Assembly: GCA_001600635.1 (NCBI GenBank)
Contig: BCKL01000023.1
Coordinates: 375,852 to 439,851 of the forward strand
DNA: 64,000 bases
DNA from: Leucosporidium creatinivorum
Lineage: Eukaryota > Basidiomycota > Microbotryomycetes > Leucosporidiales > Leucosporidiaceae
Reading direction: 5' to 3'
Shown here in pieces: positions 54,976 to 58,324 of the stretch. The position numbers were made by a program, and so were the translations under genes. Each line of letters opens with the position of its first letter. Position 1 is the first letter of the stretch. The notes under the pieces are model-generated. The model saw only the letters and a list, made by a program, of their open reading frames with translations. It was not told the DNA's origin and ran no database searches.

Positions 54976-55242
54976 TCGTGAGATATTGGAGCTGCTTCGA
55001 GATAGCGAGAGCGAGACGAGGAGAGATGGAGGAGGCAGAGCTGCTTCACGCCGCGAGACTTTGGAGGCAGGCGCCGGAGCGTGAGCTTCCGCGATGTGGG
55101 TTGGAGGTCGTTCGGCGATAGCTGATGGGCCGCTTGGGCAGCGACAGGCTGGCAAAGGCGAACGTTCGGTTTCTCGAGCTAGTTTACCGGTCATCTGTAA
55201 TGTTAGCAGCTCGCCTCGGCGCCTCCTTCGGCGTCCGTCTTC

Positions 55243-55898
55243 GCCTCTCCATCGCTGCTGCCTGTACTCTTGCGGTTCTCCAGATTATCTCGAAAACCCC
55301 AAGAAGTACATCCCGGGAGCGAAGATGGCCTGTACGTTTCAGGGTCCCTCGTTTTTCTCACGGACTTGGGCGGCTGACCTTGTCCCTCCTTCTCTCCCTG
55401 TTCCCTCTCCGTCGCATCTGCCACCATCCTTCCCGCTCGCCAACCGCTCGAAATCATTTCAACTCGTCGTCTTCCATCTCAATAGTCGCCGGGTACGTCG
55501 CATTCGGATTCTGGTGGATAGCTGGAGAGGCAGATAGCGGGAGAGCGCTCGGCGCCGAGGGGAAATCTAGAGGGTGGACTAAAAGCTGACCCCGCGATGT
55601 CTAACAGTCTCAAGAAGGACAAGGATCGCTCGAACCTTATTACCTGGATGAAGGAGTAAATATCACTTGGATGCTCCTCAAGACCTTAGGCTCGATGCTG
55701 ACCCTCCCTTCGTTGCTCGCAGGGCCTGCGCTTAAAGCGTCGGCTGCTTCGGAAAAGGCGCACACCTAGCGTCCTATACCTCCATTACACGCGGCATCAC
55801 CCCCCGCCCCCGCTCCGTCTGTAATATCCTGCAACCCATCCCTCACCAGACACTCTTTCGGTCCTCCGGGCGTCCCCATCCTTGCGAGCGGAGCTTGG
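55243..55898 (+). repeat. Left arm of the CYC1 inverted repeat
   Basis: About 656 bp that matches the reverse complement of 56855-57510. Coordinates of matching bases sum to 112753 across the arm, so there is no net gap. By eye I found one mismatch in the core (55319 G against the complement of 57434), with divergence only at the outer edges. Weaker similarity continues to about 55220. It carries copies of the last three CYC1 exons and the 3' flank. Confidence 0.93.
55284..55659 (+). pseudogene. Truncated inverted copy of cytochrome c exons 7-9
   Basis: Plus-strand copy of the last three exons of the cytochrome c gene at 57094-58324: 55284-55331 (YLENPKKYIPGAKMA), 55486-55492 (the 7-nt exon) and 55608-55659 (LKKDKDRSNLITWMKE and stop). 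Splice sites and reading frame are intact and identical to the functional gene except for one base, which changes Thr to Ala before KMA. Exons 1-6, with the haem-binding CAQCH, are absent, and no promoter or ATG supplies them, so it cannot make cytochrome c. It is a fragment from a recent local inverted duplication rather than a processed copy, because the introns are present. Confidence 0.9.
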
Positions 55899-56854
55899 GC
55901 AGCTGAGATGGATTGGCCATGCGCGGGGGATAATGGAGAGTGGACCCAAATTGGCGGGCTAGCTGCGAGCACCCACGGCTTGGTCGGGCGCCGAGCCTGA
56001 AACCGACTCGTGCAGAGGCAGAGGGGTTCTGAGGCGAGGCTGCACCTTCGTGGGGGCACTGCTGACATGGTGCTACGTAAATGCGCTACACCTGCGATTC
56101 CGAGGCTGTTACAAAGGCGAGACGTGCGATTCCAGCTCAAGGAAGGCGGCTCTCATCAACGCCGAGAACGAGCGCCAAAAGGCCATTCTGCGCGAAGGTC
56201 TTCTTGTTGTGGGGTGTGCGAGGGCGTGTAGCACTTCTGTCGCAGCTGGTTACGTTCTTGCCGCCTTCTGTAACGCAAGGAGCTGTCTGCTCCCCCTCCC
56301 AACGCTCCCGCTGCGCGCCTTGCCGCTGTTCGCCTCCGCCTCTCTCTCGCTGCTCGCCTGGACTCGGTTTCGAGTTATTTTGAGAGTGCAAAGAAATACA
56401 TCCCAGGGACCAAAACGGCCTGTAAGGTATGGCCTCACCGTTGCAGCTTTCAGACTTGGGTCGTTGACGTTGCCCCCCTTCCTCGTTTCTGCCTCTCCCT
56501 CTCCGTCGCATCTGCCGACGCTTTCCACGTTCGCCTACTCCTCGGACCCGCTGCATTCTGTCACCCAATAGACTCGTAATCGCAAAGTGCAGTCCTCGAT
56601 CTTGTGGTGAGACGTAGACTCGGAGCATTCGGCTTGGGCTCGGCGATGAGCAAAAGTTGCTGCTCTCGGCTCAATCGCTTCCTCAAGCACTCCACTAGTC
56701 TGCAAACGACGCGGGCACTGCCCTTGTCTTGACGCAGCGAGTAGCATGGCGCGGGGAACCGGGCCACACAATCAAGCTCGCGCTCGTCCGCTGTAGACGA
56801 CCGTCCCACCCGCCCTCGATCCATGTTCACGCATCGCTGAATCCTCTCCTCCAC
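55899..56854. other. Spacer between the inverted-repeat arms
   Basis: About 956 bp between the arms. It contains a decayed third copy of the CYC1 3' region (about 56330-56545). The rest (55900-56330 and 56545-56850) has no recognisable gene. Some of it may be older, unrecognisable duplication of CYC1 exons, but I could not align it convincingly. Confidence 0.6.
56330..56545 (+). pseudogene. Decayed third copy of the cytochrome c 3' region
   Basis: Plus-strand sequence still alignable by eye to the CYC1 exon-7 region and following intron. It shows the CGCCTCT...CGCTGCT run before the exon, then a stretch coding KKYIPGTKTAC in place of KKYIPGTKMA, then GACTTGGG and CTCTCCGTCGCATCTGCC in the right order and spacing. 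Many substitutions have accumulated, so it is much older than the near-perfect arm. The acceptor and flanks look eroded. It has the same orientation as the left arm and opposite to the functional gene. Confidence 0.7.
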
Positions 56855-57510
56855 CAAAGCTCTGCTCGCGAGGATGGGGACGCCCGGAGGACCGAAAGAG
56901 TGTCTGGTGAGGGATGGGTTGCAGGATATTACAGACGGAGCGGGGGCGGGGGGTGATGCCGCGTGTAATGGAGGTATAGGACGCTAGGTGTGCGCCTTTT
57001 CCGAAGCAGCCGACGCTTTAAGCGCAGGCCCTGCGAGCAACGAAGGGAGGGTCAGCATCGAGCCTAAGGTCTTGAGGAGCATCCAAGTGATATTTACTCC
57101 TTCATCCAGGTAATAAGGTTCGAGCGATCCTTGTCCTTCTTGAGACTGTTAGACATCGCGGGGTCAGCTTTTAGTCCACCCTCTAGATTTCCCCTCGGCG
57201 CCGAGCGCTCTCCCGCTATCTGCCTCTCCAGCTATCCACCAGAATCCGAATGCGACGTACCCGGCGACTATTGAGATGGAAGACGACGAGTTGAAATGAT
57301 TTCGAGCGGTTGGCGAGCGGGAAGGATGGTGGCAGATGCGACGGAGAGGGAACAGGGAGAGAAGGAGGGACAAGGTCAGCCGCCCAAGTCCGTGAGAAAA
57401 ACGAGGGACCCTGAAACGTACAGGCCATCTTCGTTCCCGGGATGTACTTCTTGGGGTTTTCGAGATAATCTGGAGAACCGCAAGAGTACAGGCAGCAGCG
57501 ATGGAGAGGC
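56855..57510 (-). repeat. Right arm of the CYC1 inverted repeat
   Basis: The arm that includes the functional gene's exons 7-9 and about 239 bp of 3' flank beyond the CYC1 stop. It pairs with 55243-55898. A possible 3'-flank intron signal (GCTGACC then TTGCTCGCAG on the minus strand) is present in both arms. Confidence 0.93.
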
Positions 57511-58324
57511 GGCAGACGAACGCCGAGGGGGGCGGAAGAGGGGGGAAAGCCAGTTAGCTTCCGTTCACGAGTCGACATCGTACAACGATCCTCCACGTAG
57601 TAGAATCACGCCTCACCGAAGAGGGTGTTCTCATCCCTGCACAAACAACGACGCGTCAGTACTCGGCGACCGGACAATCCTCCTCCCGCTCAGGCCTCAC
57701 CAGTGAACGGCAGCCTTCTTGTTGGCCTCGGTGTACGAGTACGACTCGACGGATCCCGACTGGCGTCCGAACTGTATGATGAAAAGGCGATGGTCAGCGA
57801 GGATGCGACGACCGAGCTGAGACGGCGAGCAACTCACAAGACCGTGAAGGTTAGGTCCGACTGGCGACGTGTAAAGCGAGATGGTCAGCTACGTGTCCCT
57901 TTCTGGCACCGCTGCGATTCCCATGGATCCCCGGCGCCACCAAGCGAAGCGAGGATAGCCCATCATCGCGATCCTCAGACCTCCTTCCCCCTCTCCGAAC
58001 TGGCCCGCACCGTCGGCGAAGGATGCAGAAAGATGGCTGTCGCGGTAGAAAGCTGCAGCACGACCAAGACTAACCCTTGTTGGCTGTAGGAAGACGCGAG
58101 AAGGTGGATCAGTATTTGTTCTCTGCGTTCCGCGATTGGCCGATGAAGGGCCGCCCTGCGAGAGATGTAGCTCACCTCCTCCGGCCTCGACGGTGTGGCA
58201 CTGGGCGCAACTGTAGGGCAATCCAGATGAGCGAAAGAACGACCGAAGAAGAGGGCGCAGACGTGGCGTACCGGGTCTTGAAGAGGGAAGCTCCCTTGGA
58301 GGCGTCTCCGGCAGTGAATCCCAT
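57094..58324 (-). CDS. CYC1: Cytochrome c
   Basis: Complete 105-residue mitochondrial cytochrome c in nine coding exons: 58272-58324, 58176-58210, 58075-58083 (9 nt), 57838-57860, 57701-57771, 57617-57636, 57422-57469, 57261-57267 (7 nt), 57094-57145. They total 318 nt and close exactly. It opens MGFTAGDASKGASLFKTR. The covalent haem site is CAQCH, followed by TVEAGGANKVGPNLHGLFGR. The axial Met is in KKYIPGTKMAFAGLKK, and it ends in SNLITWMKE. The 9-nt exon supplies ANK and the 7-nt exon FAG, both in invariant regions, so skipping them would break the protein. A 5'UTR intron (GTAAGC donor at 58385) ends directly against the ATG. Exons 7-9 lie in the right arm of the inverted repeat. The gene is divergent from HTD2. 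Confidence 0.96.

Follow-up and report, generated by a model that had tools for sequence, protein, structure and literature searches.

The 64-kb window (the whole stretch of Leucosporidium creatinivorum DNA analysed here) contains the cytochrome c gene CYC1, in a genome of intron-rich genes and about 60% GC. The exon model of CYC1 is a prediction based on reading frame and splice sites, in which ten exons encode 108 codons and some are extremely short, such as the minus-strand micro-exons of 7 nt (57261-57267) and 9 nt (58075-58083), together with a 13-nt exon 10. The spliced 108-aa protein matches Pfam PF00034 with 50.8 bits, against a cut-off of 21.3, and its best match among solved structures is a variant of yeast iso-1 cytochrome c. 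An exon-by-exon search of the genome for other cytochrome c genes gave six matches at E<=10, all of them at the CYC1 locus, although a search of this kind could miss a diverged or intron-rich paralogue.

The 3′ end of CYC1 recurs nearby in inverted orientation. The near-perfect inverted duplication described by the first-pass annotation is real, as the two arms align without gaps over 655 bp (55242-55896 of the plus strand with 57511-56857 of the minus strand) on either side of a 960-bp spacer, and a repeat search recovers them too, with less tightly drawn ends (682 nt at 98%). This pair is the sole self-match of the window, direct or inverted (BLAST E<=1e-5, low-complexity filter on), while the left arm finds three matching places in the 27.7-Mb genome, namely itself, the right arm and a weak third copy. 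The composition of the arms has to be revised. Instead of three exons and two introns, the exon model places exon 7, the 7-nt exon 8, exon 9 and the 13-nt exon 10 in each arm, together with three complete introns and a portion of intron 6, and the 3′ flank, formerly put at about 240 bp, extends for 161 bp from the predicted stop codon at 57018-57020.

It had been stated that a single mismatch separates the arms. That count is correct for a 641-bp core (left-arm positions 55242-55882), of which only 116 bases are predicted exon, but two more mismatches (55883 and 55890) lie in the last 14 bp. Read in the gene sense, the core mismatch is a G at 55319 in the left arm and an A at 57434 in CYC1, and the arm alignment bears out the Thr/Ala coding difference proposed for it, with Thr in CYC1 and Ala in the left arm. 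Since Thr also occupies this position in the third copy and in four solved cytochromes c among the alignments listed (three named iso-1 and 1yeb), Ala is probably the derived residue. A minus-strand alcohol-dehydrogenase-like gene (ADH_N match) apparently starts 266 bp from the beginning of the left arm, which lies on its upstream side (interval 54976-55241) and may therefore border the promoter of that gene.

Table. Features of the CYC1 locus (window positions) and the inverted Argonaute-domain pair of contig 14 (contig positions)
Feature	Position	Strand	Basis or detail
CYC1, cytochrome c gene	57018..58324	-	10 predicted exons, 108 aa; exon model, Pfam and structure match
Left arm, inverted partial CYC1 copy without exons 1-6	55242..55896	+	arm alignment, genome search
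Right arm, the real CYC1 3′ end: part of intron 6, exons 7-10, 161 bp of 3′ flank	56857..57511	-	repeat search, arm alignment, exon model
Outer edge, decayed in-register homology with 57512-57534 (18/23 columns)	55220..55241	+	0/300 shuffles; 1/1500 genomic controls
Inner edge, weak in-register homology with 56856-56776 (51/86 columns)	55897..55970	+	4/300 shuffles; 13/1500 controls over 60 nt, 9/800 over 100 nt
Decayed third copy, CYC1 intron 6 to intron 8, exon 7 still discernible (56376-56420)	about 56223..56651	+	alignment; 0/200 shuffles as good
Argonaute-domain pair, contig 14	651528-654294 and 658839-661605	inverted	spacer 4544 bp (4.5 kb)

The spacer is not wholly unrelated sequence, as it holds a decayed third copy of the CYC1 end that the first-pass annotation had missed. 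The alignment of this relic with the intron 6 to intron 8 region of CYC1 scores 173, against 46 for the best of 200 shuffles. Within its exon 7, third codon positions differ from CYC1 at 9 of 15 sites and first and second positions at 4 of 30 (Fisher P 0.004), an excess that is to be expected if coding constraint acted on either lineage or on both, as it must have done on CYC1. The relic shows that old copies of the CYC1 end existed at this locus. The possibility that the spacer holds a more complete second cytochrome c gene was considered and rejected: upstream exons 5-6 lack support (154 of 800 controls score as high), and so does the relic's far 3′ part (52 of 200 shuffles as good). A comparison of the left outer flank with the sequence flanking the relic, equalled by 12 of 300 shuffles when anchored and by 10 of 200 unanchored, was not used; a match of the right outer flank to the relic (3 of 300 anchored, 31 of 200 unanchored) is among the readings tried and rejected.

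Were the left arm a single fresh copy, it should end abruptly and show evenly spread mismatches; instead, the similarity fades. On both sides the near-identical tract is bounded by more diverged homology, the configuration of a gene-converted duplicate, which is matched by 1 of 1500 genomic controls at the outer edge and 13 of 1500 at the inner one, with the unanchored flanks not significant. The latter were assessed by local alignment of 300-bp flanks, in which 11 of 200 shuffles did as well at the outer side and 81 of 200 at the inner side. The argument is weaker at the inner edge, where the inner part on its own is only moderately significant: from 55897 there are 20 ungapped identities in 40 positions, a level reached by 35 of 20,000 controls. 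When measured from 55883, none of 1500 controls is as good, but this stretch includes 14 bases already counted in the arm. That two of the three arm mismatches fall within the final 14 bp of the 655 has a P of about 0.001, a value that is optimistic because the extension of a local alignment partly favours mismatches at arm ends.

The reading that we favour, with a probability of roughly 0.6, takes the left arm for an old, most likely non-functional fragment of CYC1 in inverted orientation, in which gene conversion from the working gene recently overwrote the core. An inverted partial copy of the CYC1 3′ end, a pseudogene fragment, would have arisen long ago at the left-arm site, and about 641 bp of it would have been replaced much later with the working gene as donor, through recombination, or a switch of template, between inverted repeats that lie close together. 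It has been reported, in the excerpted text of PMC8604942, that short inverted repeats are homogenised by template switching. The arms, the location of their mismatches, the weaker homology past their edges and an independent relic in the spacer are observed; that sequence passed from CYC1 to the copy, how it recombined, how old the fragment is and that it has no function are what we infer. The event looks like a known kind, in which repair overwrites an old broken copy from the working gene. Conversion is supported by the homology continuing past the arm edges, by the clustered mismatches, by the relic as a sign of old copies and by the probably derived Ala residing in the copy without exons 1-6. 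The contig 14 Argonaute pair also speaks for it through its mismatches at the tract ends and the homology that resumes from its left inner edge, and against it through its negative edge-anchored tests. The alternative posed by the first-pass annotation, a very recent event or gene conversion, is narrowed by the edge tests, which favour conversion of an older copy over a fresh event, although with less force at the inner edge. The shortness of the decayed flanking homology counts against this interpretation.

The CYC1 3′ end may instead have been duplicated in inverted orientation in one recent step, for instance through template switching during replication, and have had too little time to diverge, but this is unlikely. 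It would explain why only one difference is found in 641 bp despite the presence of introns and flank, and the copy breaks off within intron 6, as a random breakpoint would. The fading of the edges would then represent junction homeology or chance; if its junctions used brief, imperfect homology, a one-step duplication could produce a similar pattern, and the unanchored flank alignments agree with this possibility. What tips the balance towards conversion of an older fragment is the in-register similarity running past both arm edges, to which the concentration of mismatches at one arm end adds.

It had also been proposed that the facing arms could act as a hairpin. The geometry is sound, as the predicted fold of a single transcript spanning both arms forms 640 of the 641 core pairs. 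Regarding the machinery, Dicer and Argonaute domains occur in the genome as domain matches, which are not whole gene models: 12 of 14 Piwi and five of six RNase III matches exceed the cut-off, and RdRP domains match on four contigs. A second Dicer domain was absent from all ten reading frames beside the RNase III matches; a later Dicer-dimer search gave one match on contig 7 and another on contig 2, each close to an RNase III match. One RNase III match adjoins a 411-bp direct repeat at 93% identity (stretch L033, 562-970 and 2309-2713). The presence of Argonaute, Dicer and RdRP domains makes siRNA silencing possible in principle, and on the predicted fold a hairpin-siRNA role for the arms is possible. 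That they are a functional siRNA source or a brake on CYC1, for which a transcript would have to read some 1.8 kb past the stop codon, form the long duplex and be diced, is nonetheless improbable. Any inverted repeat folds likewise, little of the core is predicted exon, and the target would be CYC1 itself, which we take to be an essential respiratory gene. By default, and most likely, the left arm is a fragment without function that repair has kept like CYC1. A more elaborate version, in which the inverted tail of an essential gene would be a self-updating silencing trigger, kept matched to the evolving gene by conversion, is highly improbable.

An assembly artefact, in which one piece was duplicated in reverse, appears quite improbable. 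Near-identical inverted arms are a recognised type of assembly error; however, the arms show three differences, their homology fades at the edges, a separate decayed relic lies between them, and the locus is interior to a 479-kb contig. We consider it very improbable that the arms serve as a reversible switch, recombining to flip the 960-bp spacer so that the orientation of the relic varies among cells or strains. Recombination between closely spaced inverted repeats in yeast does yield both inversions and gene conversions (PMC8748988, as excerpted), but the spacer contains no known promoter or gene to be switched. Finally, a foldback transposon or MITE is rejected, as arm and spacer match only this locus in the genome and no direct repeat is visible by eye in the 20-bp flanks, and so is a processed pseudogene, as the arm retains its introns.

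A near-identical inverted pair is also found elsewhere in this genome. The Argonaute-domain pair of contig 14 differs at three positions of its 2767 bp, none of them more than 11 bp from an end, and includes 2746 identical bp. This pair is like the CYC1 arms in its near-perfect inverted tract and unlike them in that the edge-anchored tests are negative (89 of 200 shuffles as good at the outer edge, 200 of 200 at the inner one). In unanchored comparisons its inner flanks reach 96, the best of 20 shuffles 47, and its outer flanks 57 against 43 for the best shuffle, and from the left inner edge homology resumes at 66/84 after 1410 extra right-side bases. A second inverted Argonaute-domain pair, at about 863-883 kb of contig 4, is 92-93% identical over about 2.5 kb compared. 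The Argonaute sample is biased, since it was found through a search of an RNAi gene family. In four segments of 30 kb (120 kb), sampled regardless of genes, there were no inverted pairs, and three of the four held direct repeats (74-89% identity) that may be tandem gene copies (contig 5, about 309.7-312.6 kb; contig 18, about 200.4-204.1 kb; contig 10, about 217.3-218.8 kb).

If the favoured reading is correct, the left arm would be a small example of an inverted gene fragment that looks new though it is old, repair having copied the working gene over it. Conversion can make duplicates look younger than their true age, as put forward in the excerpted part of PMC3375281. Together with the contig 14 pair, the CYC1 arms hint that this genome may convert inverted duplicates, a tendency measurable across strains, but two near-identical inverted pairs, one of them from a biased search, are too few for a genome-wide rule.

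No description of this locus was recognised among the literature matches listed, in a search made without the species name. Several known systems resemble it in part. The palindromes of the human Y chromosome, whose arms are more than 99.9% alike through conversion (PMC3723533), and the GSTT2 inverted duplication (PMC3375281) share with it, according to the excerpts of these papers, inverted arms at least 99% identical, in their case kept alike by conversion as is proposed for CYC1. The CYC1 locus differs from them in being far shorter (0.65 kb), in containing only part of a gene, in belonging to a fungus and in holding a decayed third copy in its spacer. Yeast inverted-repeat recombination and template switching resemble the proposed event in combining arm homogenisation with spacer inversion (excerpts of PMC8748988 and PMC8604942). 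The repeats in those yeast systems were either engineered or short and tracked in strains, whereas the CYC1 event is deduced from one sequence. Young plant miRNA genes are hairpin-RNA loci that silence related genes and whose inverted repeat carries part of the target gene. The hpRNA loci of Drosophila, as described in excerpts of PMC10292708 and PMC10317233, likewise resemble the CYC1 arms: a long inverted repeat includes a piece of a target gene, and the genome has RNAi domains. In fungi, hairpin small-RNA loci have been re-analysed, and the excerpted account calls their hairpins mostly short (PMC9757828). What sets the CYC1 locus apart from hpRNA and young miRNA loci is that one of its arms is the source gene's own end, and that it is known here through its sequence.
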